Assembly: GCA_016215155.1 (NCBI GenBank)
Contig: JACRLQ010000098.1
Location: forward strand, 1 to 64,000
Direction: 5' to 3'
DNA length: 64,000 nucleotides
DNA from: Nitrospirota bacterium
GTDB taxonomy: Bacteria > Nitrospirota > Thermodesulfovibrionia > Thermodesulfovibrionales > UBA6898
Shown here one piece after another: positions 22,470 to 29,138 of this stretch. The notes beneath the pieces are model-generated. The model ran no database searches, was not told the origin of the DNA, and saw nothing but the letters and a program-made list of their open reading frames with translations. Position 1 is the stretch's first letter. The number at the start of each line of letters is the position of its first letter. Position numbers and translations under genes: made by a program.

Positions 22470-23270
22470 TTATTCGGTCCATTTCTTTGGAGGCTGTTTG
22501 AGGAACCTCTCGGAAAAGAGGCTGTCATCAATGCCGATGCCATAATCAGCCCTGGAGTATGAAACCTCTGTCAAATGCCCGCTCTGAAGGTTTTTCATGC
22601 TTCTTTTGGTTATCGTCGGAAATCCCTTGATGTCCTTAACCTCGATAGCGGTAAATACTTTATACAGCTCGCCCCTTTTGTCGTAATATTCTTCTTTAAG
22701 CGGAAGGAATGTGGATTTATCAATCCATGACATTTTGTAACTGTAATCCATATCCCCTGCTTTCGGCGTGCTTTTTACGACGTAGGAATCTTTACCGCCT
22801 GTTTTTTCCTCCTTTATAATGCCGTGGGTGTCTTCCGCAAGGCTCCTCCCTGATACGTCCTCATAGGTAAAATCGGAGCCGACAAAACTCGAATGCTTGT
22901 CCTTTGCCGCGATACGCCTGACCATGCTTATCGCCGGAACGAAAAGCCAGCGGTCAGCGTCTCTGCCGGGATATTTATAGACCATGAAGGTCATGTCCTT
23001 GACATCCGCCGGCTGGAAAAAGTAGATAAAATACTTCTGGTCCCCGCCGCTTTCGCCATAATTCTTTCTGAGCATGGTCATCTCTCTTACCCGCTCCTGA
23101 CCGCCCTTGCTTATGAGCTTCATCATGACCCGGGCCTTGAAGTCCTTGCCAGGATATAGAAACGCGGCCTGAGACTTCTTCATGACCTCGTCAGGAGTTA
23201 CAGCAAGTGAAATGCCGCATAAGGCAGCAGAAACTGCGATTGCAAAAACAATTATTAAAGTCTTTTTCAT
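22470..23270 (-). CDS. Outer membrane lipoprotein-sorting (LolA-like) protein
   Basis: 266 residues with a signal peptide (MKKTLIIVFAIAVSAALCG...SLA) and a LolA-like beta fold (RVMMKLISKGGQERVREMTML, YFIYFFQPADVKDMTFMVY, WLFVPAISMVRRIAAKDK, SFVGSDFTYEDVSG). Proteins of this type next to an MMPL exporter are periplasmic carriers of lipids or similar hydrophobic molecules, related to but distinct from LolA. It overlaps the exporter gene by four bases (ATGA), so the two are co-translated. Confidence 0.9.
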   Translation of the reverse strand: MKKTLIIVFAIAVSAALCGISLAVTPDEVMKKSQAAFLYPGKDFKARVMMKLISKGGQERVREMTMLRKNYGESGGDQKYFIYFFQPADVKDMTFMVYKYPGRDADRWLFVPAISMVRRIAAKDKHSSFVGSDFTYEDVSGRSLAEDTHGIIKEEKTGGKDSYVVKSTPKAGDMDYSYKMSWIDKSTFLPLKEEYYDKRGELYKVFTAIEVKDIKGFPTITKRSMKNLQSGHLTEVSYSRADYGIGIDDSLFSERFLKQPPKKWTE

Positions 23271-25633
23271 ATTTTATCTCCTTTTAGCAGCCATCCCTGC
23301 ATGAGCGTGATAAGAGCCGGCAAATAGATTATAGTCATAAAGGCGCTTAGCAGCATCATGCTGACGATAAACGCACCTACGGTGATATACGGGGTAAGCG
23401 GGGCAAACATCATCACCGCAAAAGAAGCGGCGAATAAAACGGCATTGCGGACTATGCCCTTCCCCGGCCTTGCCGCGGTCCAGTGAAGCGTGTCAGTAAC
23501 AACGTCACGTGTAAGGGCAGCCCCCTGTGGCTGCCCTGCCTGAGCCTGAGAGGGCGAACACAGGGGTTCGCCCCTGCATTCCGTCAGCCGCTGCCTGAAC
23601 CTGCTCACAAAATGGATCGCAAAGTCCACGGCCATGCCGAGGGAAAGGCAGGAGAGGACCGATATCGGCATATCAAAGTCCTTGCCGATGAAACCCAAAA
23701 CACCATAAATGATAAGGATTGTGAACAGAAGAGGCGTATAACCGACAAGCGCCCATTTCACTGAGCGGAAATCATAGGCGAGTATCGCAAATACCACGAT
23801 CAGCGCGAGAATAAAGCCCTTGACCATATCCCAGAGCACCTCATGGTTCCAGACCAGGTTAAAGTAGGCGGTCCCGGCGGGCTTCATCTCCATCGGTGTC
23901 TGGTTGGCCCTTTTATATCCTTCCACTGCGCTTATCACATTCTGCATTGCCGTGGCGTCCCAGGTCTTGAGCTGGACCCAGATGTTCGCCCGCCTGAACG
24001 GATAGTCAACGACATTGTCCAGGTCCGAGGGCTTTGCGGACATGGAAAAGAGAAAGATATACTGCCCGATCATCTCCTTTGTCTCGGGCACGACATCGTA
24101 CTTTGGGTCGTCATCATGAAGCACCCGGTTTATGCGTTTTACGTAATCAACGACTGATGTAGTCTTGCCGACGACCGGGAGCTTCTCCAGATGCCTCTGA
24201 AGCCCTTCGATATATCTCATCGCCTCCGGCGTCTTGATATAATCGTCCTCCTTCGCAATTGCTATTATATACCCAAGTGACGTGCCGCCCAGGGCCTGGT
24301 TGATAACCGTATCGGAGATACGGACATCGCTGCCTTTTTTGAACCATTCGACCATATTATTGTTGACCCTCGTCTTTGCTATCCCTATGATCGCGATTAT
24401 GACAAGGATAATGCCTGCGGCAACCGTCATTGCGGGCTTGTGGGTGCCGATCCCGGCAAGCTTTCCAAGAAACTGTGATGTCCTGTCCGTGCCGATGTCT
24501 TCAGCGTGGGCGATCTTTTCTATCTTCTCGTCCTTCACAAAGGTGAACATTGCAGGTATGAAGCTGAAGCTGAGAAGTCTGAGTGCGATAGTTCCGAAGG
24601 CAACAAGACCGCCGAAGACCCTCACTGGAATGATATTCATGAATAAAAGCACGGCAAACCCTGCCGCAGTCGCGAGGGCCGTATTTCTGACCGGGCGGCT
24701 GACCGCGTTCATCGTCTCGATGATCGCCTTTTTCTTGTCCTTTGTCTCCCTGTACCGGAAATAAAACTCATTGAAGATATGCATACTGTCCGTCGCTATT
24801 GCCATAAGGAAGACCGGCGCCATGGAACTCATGATATGGATAGGAAAACCCAGTCCGATAAGAAGACCCATGCTCCAGACAATGGCGATCATTGCGTCCA
24901 TCATAAGCGTGATCGAAAGGAAGAGGTCCCTGAACATGAGATATCTGACAAAGAGCATGACCATACCGGCAATAGGCGCGAAAATGGCCATAAGCTTGAA
25001 CATCTCGGCCCCGAAGGTATCGCGGGCGACAGGGTCTCCGGCTACATAATATTTTCCGTCTCCCTTTTCTTTCTTTACGATCTCCTTTATTCTGTCGGCA
25101 ATCTCCTTTCCGTTGGCCCCTTTTTCAAGGGGGACATAGATTGCCGTCGTCTTTCCGTCTTTTGAAATTATACGATTGATGAAAAGAGGGTTTTCATAAA
25201 GCATTTTTCTGAGATGTTCGATCCCCAGGGTGTCTTCAGGGACCTTTGTCATTAAAGGGGCTACCGTCAGTGTCTGATTTTCGGCGGTAACGTTATCAAT
25301 GGTCGTAAAACTCGACACGTCCCGGGCGGCGACACCTTTGATTTTCAAAACTTCATCAGTGATCCTCTGAATAGACGCAAGGGTGTCTTTGTTGAGTATC
25401 CCTTTTTCATTCACGATGCCGAGGGCTATCATGTCCTCATAAAGGCCGAAGGTCTTTTCCACTTCATCATTCCAGACCCTTACATCAGAGGTCGCAGGCA
25501 GCATATTTTTGGGGTTGGTATCGGTCCGGACCTTCGGAAACTGTGTCATGAAGAGCATTGTGATAAGCACGGACAGGGCCACAATCAGTCTGGGATGTTC
25601 TACGGAAAACTCAACAAGGGAAAACTTACGCAT
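23267..25633 (-). CDS. RND/MMPL family exporter
   Basis: 788 residues with twelve predicted membrane helices in two sets and two large periplasmic loops. Family features include PKVRTDTNPKNMLPATSDVRVW in the first loop, SSMAPVFLMAIATDSMHIFNEFYF in the first helix set and SVLSCLSLGMAVDFAIHFVSRFRQR in the second. Likely substrate class is lipids, hopanoids or similar. An odd segment follows FRQRL: about 20 residues (ECRGEPLCSPSQAQAGQPQG) come from two palindromic repeats inserted in frame at 23515-23573. Confidence 0.92.
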   Translation of the reverse strand: MRKFSLVEFSVEHPRLIVALSVLITMLFMTQFPKVRTDTNPKNMLPATSDVRVWNDEVEKTFGLYEDMIALGIVNEKGILNKDTLASIQRITDEVLKIKGVAARDVSSFTTIDNVTAENQTLTVAPLMTKVPEDTLGIEHLRKMLYENPLFINRIISKDGKTTAIYVPLEKGANGKEIADRIKEIVKKEKGDGKYYVAGDPVARDTFGAEMFKLMAIFAPIAGMVMLFVRYLMFRDLFLSITLMMDAMIAIVWSMGLLIGLGFPIHIMSSMAPVFLMAIATDSMHIFNEFYFRYRETKDKKKAIIETMNAVSRPVRNTALATAAGFAVLLFMNIIPVRVFGGLVAFGTIALRLLSFSFIPAMFTFVKDEKIEKIAHAEDIGTDRTSQFLGKLAGIGTHKPAMTVAAGIILVIIAIIGIAKTRVNNNMVEWFKKGSDVRISDTVINQALGGTSLGYIIAIAKEDDYIKTPEAMRYIEGLQRHLEKLPVVGKTTSVVDYVKRINRVLHDDDPKYDVVPETKEMIGQYIFLFSMSAKPSDLDNVVDYPFRRANIWVQLKTWDATAMQNVISAVEGYKRANQTPMEMKPAGTAYFNLVWNHEVLWDMVKGFILALIVVFAILAYDFRSVKWALVGYTPLLFTILIIYGVLGFIGKDFDMPISVLSCLSLGMAVDFAIHFVSRFRQRLTECRGEPLCSPSQAQAGQPQGAALTRDVVTDTLHWTAARPGKGIVRNAVLFAASFAVMMFAPLTPYITVGAFIVSMMLLSAFMTIIYLPALITLMQGWLLKGDKI
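23515..23573. repeat. Pair of palindromic repeats inside the RND exporter gene
   Basis: GGGCAGCC-CCCTGT-GGCTGCCC (23515-23536) and GGGCGAAC-ACAGGG-GTTCGCCC (23552-23573) are the sort of palindromes otherwise found between genes (compare 9712-9735 and 58753-58776). Here they keep the reading frame and add a loop to the exporter. Confidence 0.7.
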
Positions 25634-25861: not shown

Positions 25862-27049
25862 TTACGGCAGATTGCTAATCCCGTTTTTCATCTTCCAGAG
25901 AAAATATTTCTCAAACCCGACCTTCATCCACTTTGCCCAGATGCCTTTTTTGGTATAGGAGTCCTGCCTGGGCGGCAGCACGGGAGATGCCTTCATCAGT
26001 GCCGCCGTATTCCCCATGTCCATTATGCAGACAACACTCAATTCCTCCATCGGAGGCGGGGGTGATCCTTTTATATCGGAATATATCGCCGCGGCAGCGG
26101 TCTTTGCCATCTTTACCGTCATGAAGCCTGTTTTCGGGACTCCCGTCGGCACTGGCGTCGCTTCGGGCGGGGCTATCGCCATTGCAACCCCTATGGTGAA
26201 GATGTTCTTATGTTTTGGGTGACGGTAGTTTTTGTCGGCAGGGATGAAGCCGCGTGGATTGCCCAGGGGAGCTACGGCCGGCACACCCTTGAAAGGAGGC
26301 GCGATCATGGCCATCTTGAAGGGTATCTTTGTGCCGTCCTTCAGTTTGATCTCCCCCGGCGTCACCTCTTCAATCGCCTGACTGACGATAGGTTTGATAT
26401 CTCTGACAGCGAATTCATCTTCAAAGAACCTCTTTGAATTGCCAAGACCGCCGACTCCCATATGCCCGAGATACGGTTCTGACGTAAGGTAGATGATAGG
26501 AACTTTATGCCGCATCTTTCTGCGTCTTAACTCCGCATCGATTTCGAAGGCCAGTTCGTACGACGGACCGAAACAGCTCACCATCTGTGACGAGCCGAGC
26601 ACTACAGGGCCAGGGGATTCAAACACCTTTTCCACGCTCTCATGCGCTTTCGTCCCGTGATCGAGTGTAAACGTGCAGTCGGTGTGCCCTTTGTCGGGGC
26701 CGAGCCCAGGGATCTCGTCGAAAGACAGATAGGGGCCGGTAGAGATGACAAGGTAATCGTATGATATTTCTTTCGTTGCGGTCCGCACCTTCGAGGAGTC
26801 GGCATCGACATTTATCACCGCTTCATGGACAAATTGAACTCCTTTGGCCCTAAGAATTCCGGGGACCTTCAACGTTATATCGTCTGGCTTTCTCCAGCCC
26901 ATGATAAGCCAGGGGAGCGATGGAAGAAATACGAACCTGTCATCATCGCTCACAACGGTCACGTCGGCGTCTTTGCCGAGAAGTCTTTTCAGCTCAAGTG
27001 CAGCCGTGAGTCCGCCGAATGAACCGCCTAAAACAACTATTTTCGCCAT
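25862..27049 (-). CDS. Sulfide:quinone oxidoreductase-like flavoprotein
   Basis: 395 residues from the ATG at 27049 (AAGGGG before it). The FAD-binding Rossmann motif is KIVVLGGSFGGLTAALEL. Three cysteines sit at spacings expected for SQR: GHTDCTFTL, MVSCFGPSYE and SVVCIMDMGN. They would form the sulfur-relay disulfide and the flavin-linked site. A C-terminal amphipathic region (WAKWMKVGFEKYFLWKMKNG) suits attachment to the membrane surface. It would oxidise sulfide or persulfide to polysulfide with quinone as acceptor, or act as a flavocytochrome c-like dehydrogenase. Upstream genes are a Sec rhodanese, TSUP permease and ArsR regulator. Confidence 0.87.
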   Translation of the reverse strand: MAKIVVLGGSFGGLTAALELKRLLGKDADVTVVSDDDRFVFLPSLPWLIMGWRKPDDITLKVPGILRAKGVQFVHEAVINVDADSSKVRTATKEISYDYLVISTGPYLSFDEIPGLGPDKGHTDCTFTLDHGTKAHESVEKVFESPGPVVLGSSQMVSCFGPSYELAFEIDAELRRRKMRHKVPIIYLTSEPYLGHMGVGGLGNSKRFFEDEFAVRDIKPIVSQAIEEVTPGEIKLKDGTKIPFKMAMIAPPFKGVPAVAPLGNPRGFIPADKNYRHPKHKNIFTIGVAMAIAPPEATPVPTGVPKTGFMTVKMAKTAAAAIYSDIKGSPPPPMEELSVVCIMDMGNTAALMKASPVLPPRQDSYTKKGIWAKWMKVGFEKYFLWKMKNGISNLP

Positions 27050-27136
27050 GTTACACCCCTTTTTTACTACGGCCTCCTTCACTTTTTAACCTGCCCGGTC
27101 AGGAACCCCTGGGGGAGTCCATGTTTATTATTTTGA

Positions 27137-27580
27137 TTATTTCTTTTCGAAAGGATATCCGGCTGCCTCCCAGGCCTTCATACCACCTTTCAGGTTGACC
27201 GCATTTTTGTATCCCAGGACATTGAGCGACCTGGTCGCCAACGGCGACCTCTTGTCGAACATTCATATCACGACAATTTTGGCGTTCTTATCCTCGATAA
27301 TCTCGTTTACATGGAAGTCAAGAAGTCCGCGTGACATATGAATAGCGCCGGGCAAATGGCTTTTTTCATATTCCTCCTTGTCCCTGATATCGAGGAATAT
27401 CACCTTTTCGTTGTTGTCCATCATCTTTTTTGCATCCTGCACGGACACTTCCTTGATCTTCGCCTTGGCTTCCGTGATAAGCTGGTCCGGAGTTTTTACT
27501 TTTTCCGCCGCATATAGGCCGGCAGTTGAACTCAGGGCAAAGATCAGAGTCAGAATAAGCACGGTAAATCTTTTTCTCAT
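27137..27580 (-). CDS. Periplasmic rhodanese with selenocysteine at the active site (in-frame TGA)
   Basis: Normal reading stops after AKIVVI at a TGA (27265-27263). Beyond it the frame stays open to a TAA at 27137 and completes a rhodanese domain: U, MFDKRSPLATRSL, NVLGYKNAVNLKGGMKAW, EAAGYPFEKK. Sec falls exactly at the catalytic cysteine of the C-x4-R loop (U-MFDK-R). Upstream parts are also rhodanese: FLDIRDKEEYEKSHLPGAIHM. A signal peptide (RFTVLILTLIFALSSTAGLYA) exports it, so this is a periplasmic selenoprotein of 147 residues. It should carry sulfane sulfur or selenium. The TSUP gene precedes it and SQR follows. Confidence 0.92.
27233..27249 (-). promoter_or_regulatory. Candidate SECIS hairpin of the rhodanese gene
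   Basis: In the mRNA, GGUCGCC-GUU-GGCGACC, a perfect seven-pair stem with loop GUU, begins 13 nt after the UGA. It has the same 17-nt length as the apical hairpin of the E. coli fdhF SECIS, whose loop also carries GU. This is the best of the three SECIS candidates in the window. Confidence 0.72.
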
Positions 27581-27620: not shown

Positions 27621-28409
27621 TTAATGACCTGTAATTATCTGATACCACATGCGCATGCCTGTAATGGCGATTATGACCGCGATCGCAAGCCGCAGATATT
27701 TGGTATTTATTTTTTTACTGACCGCGCCTCCAATTTGCGCGCCCGGTACTGTTCCAATCACCAGGGCTATGGCTGCGGGCCAGATTATCTGCCCGGTCGT
27801 CATCTTTCCGATCGTTCCGGCTATCGCCCCCAGAAATACAATGCCGAGCGTACTGCCGATTACGATGCGTGTGGGGATGTTCAGCAGATATATCATGATC
27901 GGGATGTAGATGAAGGCCCCCGGCGCGCCGACCATGCCTCCGAAGGTCCCGATAACGAGACTCACCATCAGGGCGAGCGCTTTGTTATAGACGATATCTT
28001 CCGGCGGTATGTCCTGCCCCTGTTCGCGTTTCGGCACGAACATAACGGCCGCCGCAATCACGGCCAGGGTCGCGAATATTGAAAGAAGTAATTCACTTTT
28101 TGTCTGCTTTGATAAAAGAGACCCGACAAGGTTCCCCACGGCATTGGCGGAGCCCATATAAAGAAGAATGGACCTGCTTACGAACTTGTTTTTCTTATGC
28201 ACGATGAGACCCGAAAGAGACGCCGAGAGGACCTGCACCATGCTGATTGCGGCCACCTGCTTCATATCGAACTGTCCGACGCCAAGCAGCGGAGGAACGT
28301 ATAACAGAAGGGGGATCATAAAGATCGCCCCGCCAAGGCCAAGCAGGCCTGAGAGAAACCCGCCTCCCAAACCCAGGAGCAATAAAGTGACGAGCAATGG
28401 GATTTCCAT
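27621..28409 (-). CDS. TSUP (TauE/SafE) family permease, in the selenoprotein cluster
   Basis: 262 residues, about eight membrane helices, TSUP motifs GGGFLSGLLGLGGAIFMIPLLLY and FGGMVGAPGAFIYIPIMIYLL. Close in plan to the TSUP protein beside selD, but not a recent duplicate at the residue level. The ATG lies two bases after the stop of the small selenoprotein gene, and a Sec rhodanese follows, so it is the membrane member of a sulfur or selenium handling operon. Substrate unknown; sulfite, thiosulfate, sulfide-derived species or selenium oxyanions are options. Confidence 0.9.
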   Translation of the reverse strand: MEIPLLVTLLLLGLGGGFLSGLLGLGGAIFMIPLLLYVPPLLGVGQFDMKQVAAISMVQVLSASLSGLIVHKKNKFVSRSILLYMGSANAVGNLVGSLLSKQTKSELLLSIFATLAVIAAAVMFVPKREQGQDIPPEDIVYNKALALMVSLVIGTFGGMVGAPGAFIYIPIMIYLLNIPTRIVIGSTLGIVFLGAIAGTIGKMTTGQIIWPAAIALVIGTVPGAQIGGAVSKKINTKYLRLAIAVIIAITGMRMWYQIITGH

Positions 28410-28411
28410 GT

Positions 28412-28666
28412 CTAGCCCTTATCACAGAGGGCCGTCTTCAGGACATCATAGCTGATCGTACCGTCTTTAACGACAAGCGTTGTGCCGACTGCGACTGACG
28501 GACAGGGGGGAGGATTGTCCTCCGCGAGGTACTCCCCTGACAGTTTGCTGATAATGACCAGCGTTGATCCAAGTTCCTTTTCAGCCATCCTGGCTGCTTC
28601 AAGGTTCTGCTGTCAGCGTTTTCCCATGGGCTCATTTACATAAAGAGTGATAATGTTTTCTTTCAT
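28412..28666 (-). CDS. Small thioredoxin-like selenoprotein (in-frame TGA), 84 aa
   Basis: From an ATG at 28666 with a strong GGGAGG site, the frame reads MKENIITLYVNEPMGKR, then TGA (28615-28613), then QQNLEAARMAEKELGSTLVI and on to a TAG at 28412, two bases before the TSUP start. Sec would be residue 18, at the end of the first strand and before the first helix, as the CxxC of thioredoxins. A Pro preceded by Cys (PPPCPSVAVG) sits where thioredoxin folds have their cis-proline, followed by two strands and a last helix with another Cys. I recognise no named family. The intact frame, start site and spacing argue for a real selenoprotein. Confidence 0.85.
28576..28604 (-). promoter_or_regulatory. 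Candidate SECIS hairpin of the small selenoprotein gene
   Basis: In the mRNA, CAGCC-AGGAU-GGCUG begins 16 nt after the UGA and is enclosed by CCUU/AAGG pairs, giving an extended stem-loop 9 to 37 nt after the UGA. Size fits a bacterial SECIS, although the apical stem is slightly farther from the UGA than in fdhF. Confidence 0.55.
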
Positions 28667-28705
28667 CGATGCCTCCCTATTATTTTTGTCCTGCATTATT
28701 CGCCG

Positions 28706-29095
28706 CTAAAAATTTGCCGCTGCATCCCGGTCTGTCTGAGATTCGATTGTCTTGTGCCCCGGTCTTTTGCCTGGATATGTCCCTCTTTTGGTGACTGGAC
28801 AACAGGGAGGGGCTGGAATATTCTCTTTATATTCTTTTTTTATGATAGCGACAAGGTCAGGGATCATCGGATCGACAAGAAAATAGCATTTGAGCCTTCC
28901 GTCGACATAATAATCTACCACGCCGGATCTTCTCAGAAGCGAAAGATGCTGAGAAACATTGGGCTGGCTTATATCAAGAAACTCCTCAAAATCACTTACG
29001 CACTTTACCCCTTTTATGAGTTCTTCGAGGATTTTGAGCCTCACGGGGTGAGCAACTATCTTTAATATCTCCAGCCTTTCCTCTGCTGTCGTCAT
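28706..29095 (-). CDS. ArsR/SmtB family transcriptional regulator
   Basis: 129 residues with a winged helix-turn-helix: LEILKIVAHPVRLKILEEL, then FLDISQPNVSQHLSLLRRSGVV and the wing YYVDGRLKCYFLVDP. Cysteines lie before the recognition helix (GVKCVSDF), after the wing (LKCYF) and as a CC pair in the tail (PAPPCCPVTK). They may bind a metalloid or sense persulfide; the classic CVC arsenic site is not present. GGGAGGAAAT precedes the ATG. It heads the operon of small selenoprotein, TSUP, Sec rhodanese and SQR, and probably represses it. Confidence 0.92.
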   Translation of the reverse strand: MTTAEERLEILKIVAHPVRLKILEELIKGVKCVSDFEEFLDISQPNVSQHLSLLRRSGVVDYYVDGRLKCYFLVDPMIPDLVAIIKKEYKENIPAPPCCPVTKRGTYPGKRPGHKTIESQTDRDAAANF

Positions 29096-29114: not shown

Positions 29115-29138
29115 ATGCTTATATTGTTATATTAGCAT
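29115..29138. promoter_or_regulatory. Candidate ArsR operator
   Basis: ATGCTTATAT-TGTT-ATATTAGCAT is an inverted repeat matching at 9 of 10 positions, 20 bp before the arsR start. Its AT-rich form resembles operators of ArsR/SmtB repressors. It would block the promoter of the whole cluster. Confidence 0.6.

Follow-up and report, generated by a model that had tools for sequence, protein, structure and literature searches.

The 64,000-nucleotide stretch of DNA analysed here (the window) carries on its minus strand an 84-codon gene whose in-frame TGA at codon 18 almost certainly encodes selenocysteine, judging by all of the sequence tests that we ran. The product very probably belongs to a TsoC-like clade of selenoproteins. 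We give a probability of roughly 0.8 to the explanation that best fits the evidence overall, namely a genuine selenocysteine gene of this clade with a role in thiol or persulfide redox chemistry. What is new is a clade that lies below the TsoC family cut-off and has its own gene setting; the TsoC motif itself is already known. The result adds a clear and testable selenoprotein clade, one that would go without annotation under the present NCBI model.

The gene and its translation signals are as follows.

28412..28666, minus strand: TsoC-like selenoprotein gene, from ATG through TGA (Sec18) to TAG, 84 aa, identified by its translation and by homologues in which codon 18 is TGA or Cys
28613..28615, minus strand: selenocysteine codon 18, an in-frame TGA
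28672..28677, minus strand: ribosome-binding site GGGAGG, by direct reading, five bases 5′ of the ATG

Read from 28666 down to 28412, the frame translates as MKENIITLYVNEPMGKRUQQNLEAARMAEKELGSTLVIISKLSGEYLAEDNPPPCPSVAVGTTLVVKDGTISYDVLKTALCDKG with one TGA inside, and its TAG stop lies two bases ahead of the ATG (28409) of a TSUP transporter gene. An earlier note on this DNA, made from its letters, had described a strong ribosome site and a full frame stopping two bases before the TSUP gene, and direct reading bears out both. Its statement that standard gene calling misses the gene wholly is accurate in that the table-11 (standard-code) list has nothing of 60 aa or longer in this frame, but the in-frame internal ATG at residue 27 could be called as the start of a 58-aa fragment, so that the miss need not be complete. 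The sense-strand reading of the same interval has three TGAs and makes no sense; the minus strand is the right one. A single TGA at the same codon of the same frame recurs across many genomes, which argues against chance.

Relatives were identified in two ways, by scanning 150 related genomes with the NF045708 profile and by searching 396 genomes from the phylum with an alignment; together these recovered many copies with exactly one internal TGA. A single-sequence query of the genome contigs found no relatives, whereas the alignment query did; viral contigs yielded none by the pattern used. From the related genomes plus named public genomes we collected 32 distinct members of the subfamily, all from Nitrospirota apart from one from Desulfobacterales. 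Codon 18 is TGA in 25 of these 32 proteins and Cys in the other 7, and six more members of a sister clade also have Cys at the Sec position. The earlier note had named the absence of Cys or Sec homologues from related arsR–TSUP operons as the outcome that would speak against a selenoprotein; such an absence is not what we see, because Cys homologues adjoin ArsR and TSUP genes at loci L087, L132 and L133.

The exchange of Sec for Cys follows the host machinery. SelA is absent from all five genomes that have only Cys forms (G169, G191, G185, G152 and G161) and present in 22 of 24 genomes with Sec forms, the remaining two being G014 (96% complete) and G220 (74% complete). As all of the Cys genomes come from a single family, this link does not represent five independent events, let alone many. 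The replacement of Sec by Cys where the Sec machinery is missing provides a clean natural control. The window's own genome encodes tRNA-Sec (69.5 bits), SelB (368 bits) and SelA (613 bits), each above its cut-off. Between the window gene and its closest relative (L097), dN is 0.14 and dS 1.19 overall; past the TGA the values are 0.15 and 1.00, indicating that purifying selection continues there. Sec/Cys exchange, host SelA/SelB/tRNA-Sec, selection beyond the TGA and the covarying hairpin described below all agree with the earlier claim of a real selenoprotein. A second tRNA-Sec match above the gathering score in the window's genome (G000:C79:23364-23453, 53.7 bits) may be a tRNA-Sec or another long-arm tRNA.

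Downstream of the TGA, at a distance of 16 bases, begins a candidate element for selenocysteine insertion.

28582..28596, minus strand: bSECIS-like hairpin with a 5-bp stem (CAGCC/GGCTG) and a 5-base loop whose second base is G

Taken by itself, the window sequence has an unremarkable folding energy (z −0.97), and the hairpin stands out only weakly in energy against synonymous shuffles (mean z −1.1); for this reason, the case for the hairpin is built on pairing and covariation. Across 16 sequences, 97.5% of cells are paired compared with 88% in shuffles, with eight both-sided changes, a result reached by 1 of 500 shuffles. Covariation comes from one pair only (21/33, each base at the wobble position of an Ala codon, seen as A-U, C-G and U-A), and the other four of the five pairs never vary. 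Columns 24 and 30, also wobble positions, do not vary even though residue 27 changes. No Rfam family matches the stretch around the hairpin. The earlier observation of a hairpin after the TGA is thus extended to a structure that is conserved and covarying in 16 relatives.

The sole NCBIfam match of the window protein is NF045708, ‘NEPxGxxU motif selenoprotein TsoC’ (E 1.2e-8, 34.9 bits, full-length profile match), and Pfam gives no match. TsoC, credited to Haft and Tolstoy (2025), appears in a list within a 2026 review, in which Tso denotes a three selenoprotein operon (PMC13188914). The residues PMGKRU-QQN around Sec had been said to match no known motif, a statement that does not survive: NEPMGKRU satisfies NEPxGxxU, the TsoC motif, with Sec at the same place in a protein of the same size. 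The form N[DE]PxGxxU is found in most clade members. The window protein falls under the curated NF045708 cut-off of 45 bits, as do other clade members (for example L083 with 39.1, L087 with 34.2 and L095 with 39.5 bits), which marks them as a separate clade uncaptured by the family model. The protein has kin in TsoC, and the clade is what is new.

In a tree of 53 rows, built from few columns with a midpoint root, the 32 clade members stand apart from TsoC and from two other TsoC-like groups (branch 97/95), and the window protein does not group inside TsoC. All 32 carry GxxU or GxxC, the classical CxxC active site being absent, and all 32 have a Cys directly before a conserved Pro (Cys55-Pro56 in the window protein); this Cys is absent from the other groups, TsoC included. 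The gene setting of the window also differs from that of TsoC, as the Tso operon (TsoA, TsoB, TsoR) is not encountered in its genome: no TsoB is found there above the cut-off, and the neighbouring ArsR-type regulator reaches only 38.6 of the 115 bits of the TsoR profile NF045707. In locus L083 (Desulfobacterales GWB2_56_26), TsoR (153 bits) comes first, followed by a TsoA-like frame whose LULAEC, read by eye, fits the TsoA motif LULAxC, then TsoB (1014 bits), TsoC (143 bits) and, 27 bases beyond TsoC, a member of the window clade (39 bits). This order argues that the clade is related to TsoC and has at least once resided inside a Tso operon. In related genomes of the same taxonomic order, TsoB (a UxxxxU rhodanese/DsbD fusion; 838 bits in L052) adjoins a third TsoC-like group with SNRPAGKRU (L052:3976-5706, L053 and L054), and these TsoC-like proteins likewise score under the NF045708 cut-off.

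With a 17-row alignment, AlphaFold2 gave a model with pLDDT 87.7 and pTM 0.76; a single-sequence model (pLDDT 47.9) was discarded. The predicted strands (5-10, 35-40, 57-60 and 63-67) and helices (16-32, 44-48 and 73-82) follow the order beta-alpha-beta-alpha-beta-beta-alpha. Foldseek returned thioredoxins as best matches, MTH895 first (E 2.2e-3), with E-values of only 1e-3 to 1e-2 and TM-scores of up to 0.78 (a clostridial thioredoxin in the PDB); sequence matches to the PDB were weak and not significant. This confident model predicts a thioredoxin fold, with its elements ordered as in thioredoxin and Sec18 located where helix 1 makes its first turn, in line with the earlier proposal of a thioredoxin-like protein with the TGA at the active-site position. 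From the helix start, Sec18 would correspond by position to the second Cys of CxxC. MTH895/ArsE-type proteins (TIGR00412, PF13192) share the predicted fold, MTH895 being the closest solved structure, but they carry CxxC whereas the window protein has GxxU and no Pfam match. Glutaredoxin matches in the window's genome are unrelated.

The selenoprotein gene is flanked by a regulator upstream and by three further genes downstream.

29115..29138, minus strand: putative operator-like inverted repeat ATGCTAATAT-AACA-ATATAAGCAT before arsR, 9 of 10 bases complementary
28706..29095, minus strand: ArsR/SmtB-type regulator with Cys32, Cys70 and Cys98-Cys99 (PF01022; NF033788, 71 bits)
27621..28409, minus strand: TSUP (TauE/SafE) membrane transporter, 262 aa (Pfam PF01925, 152.7 bits), which adjoins the homologues in many relatives
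27137..27580, minus strand: secreted-looking rhodanese with Sec106, TGA 27263..27265 at the catalytic Cys position (KIVVIUMFDKRS)
25862..27082, minus strand: SQR-like flavoprotein (pyridine nucleotide-disulfide oxidoreductase), 406 aa (Pfam PF07992), syntenic in relatives

The order ArsR, selenoprotein, TSUP, rhodanese(Sec), SQR-like is that of the operon in Nitrospirota and recurs in relatives; searches of the literature turned up no account of this exact operon. Under the standard code the rhodanese ORF ends at 105 aa; read-through yields 147 aa and raises its best NCBIfam score from 43.8 to 91.8 bits, and the TGA is kept in L043, L045 and L049. By this reading of its sequence, the rhodanese is a second selenoprotein of the operon. 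The SQR-like flavoprotein scores 99 bits with NF049943, short of the cut-off of 525. Relatives usually have three extra genes ahead of the SQR-like gene, DsrE-, DsrF- and DsrH-like (named by reading their sequences), which the window lacks between rhodanese and SQR. The DsrE-like protein has no NCBIfam match; its gene carries an in-frame TGA (LKVYLUGGC) followed by the DsrF-/DsrH-like genes at L043:7789-8142, L045:7990-8343, L085:9346-9699 and others. DsrE-like and rhodanese-like selenoproteins are kinds already listed in PMC13188914; here they are co-operonic with the window protein and unrelated to it in sequence, that is, partners and not homologues.

Cys32 and the CCP tail (Cys98-Cys99-Pro) of the regulator are common to the loci of all TsoC subfamilies, including canonical TsoC (L062-L064), so that ArsR proteins of the same type stand upstream of TsoC and of the window clade at several loci. 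The window ArsR is likely a thiophile sensor distinct from TsoR. Similar AT-rich inverted repeats lie at about −40 to −65 before arsR in many relatives.

These features show how the protein is made and suggest how it may work. By sequence and prediction, the UGA at codon 18 is read as selenocysteine by the host SelA/SelB/tRNA-Sec, steered by the downstream hairpin, to give a cytosolic 84-residue thioredoxin-fold protein with the motif N-x-P-x-G-x-x-U and Cys55 before Pro56. Sec18 may act as nucleophile with Cys55 as resolving partner, the two forming a selenenylsulfide/selenol redox pair. The protein would probably serve as a thiol/persulfide reductase or sulfane-sulfur carrier that hands on reducing equivalents or sulfur among the rhodanese, the SQR-like flavoprotein and, in relatives, the DsrEFH-like relay, while TSUP would export or import a small anion of sulfur (or selenium) and ArsR would induce the operon on a thiophile or otherwise sense stress. 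The operon partners are sulfur proteins, which we counted in favor of sulfur handling. Taken as a whole, this functional assignment (a Sec18/Cys55 pair, persulfide reduction or sulfane-sulfur carriage, TSUP anion transport and ArsR sensing) has a little under an even chance of being right. More tentatively still, the NDPMGKRU/Cys55 clade could form a selenoenzyme family of its own, in which a Sec-Cys pair spanning the fold, from the start of the helix to the cis-Pro loop, takes the place of CxxC, and could stand at the core of an undescribed multi-selenoprotein sulfur/persulfide pathway of Nitrospirota comprising ArsR, TSUP, rhodanese-Sec, DsrE-Sec, an SQR-like protein and sometimes SelD. The clade links the puzzling Tso selenoproteins with a recurrent sulfur-handling gene set, which offers a concrete hypothesis for TsoC-like function.

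The chief alternatives to a sulfur role are the detoxification of arsenic or metals and the supply of selenium. The operon could confer resistance to arsenic, antimony or metals, with ArsR using its C-terminal Cys pair to sense As(III) and the selenoprotein acting as an MTH895/ArsE-type arsenical reductase. The conserved Cys32 and Cys98-Cys99 of the regulator, a related TsoC-like copy that matches TIGR00412 (MTH895/ArsE) and the rank of MTH895 as top PDB fold match would all agree with this, but no arsenic-specific gene was found in the operon, whose neighbors are TSUP, rhodanese, SQR-like and DsrEFH-like genes, and we consider such a function unlikely. Slightly less likely again is a selenium-handling set, in which TSUP would move selenite or selenide-like species and the selenoprotein would carry or reduce selenium for SelD. 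A gene for Sec-containing SelD adjoins or lies near the cluster at several loci, sometimes with a second TSUP, but the operon in the window lacks SelD, and genomes without SelA still keep Cys forms together with ArsR and TSUP. Finally, it is highly improbable that the TGA really ends translation and that the 58-residue part from Met27 is the gene or a decayed remnant: Met27 is an in-frame start and the folding energy of the window alone is not exceptional, but the N-terminal strand and the NxPxGxx[U/C] motif are conserved, Cys stands at codon 18 in genomes without SelA, purifying selection acts on both sides of the TGA, and the ribosome site precedes the upstream ATG.

Compared with a sulfur-handling operon of this kind, the SAO operon with its thioredoxin-like SaoT is similar in uniting several selenoproteins, a thioredoxin-like one among them, but by its published description (PMC13188914) it differs in its UxxC motif, organometallic context and other genes. 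In or beside the cluster of several relatives we noted a Sec-containing SelD-like gene (L047:6776-7783, L093:9116-10123, L094:9105-10106 and L138), often with a second TSUP present. In the window, the operon is followed on the minus strand (22470..25633) by two genes, one for an MMPL-like membrane protein of 788 aa and one for a LolA-like protein of 266 aa, both named by eye; the same pair trails the operon in several relatives, and canonical TsoC in L062.
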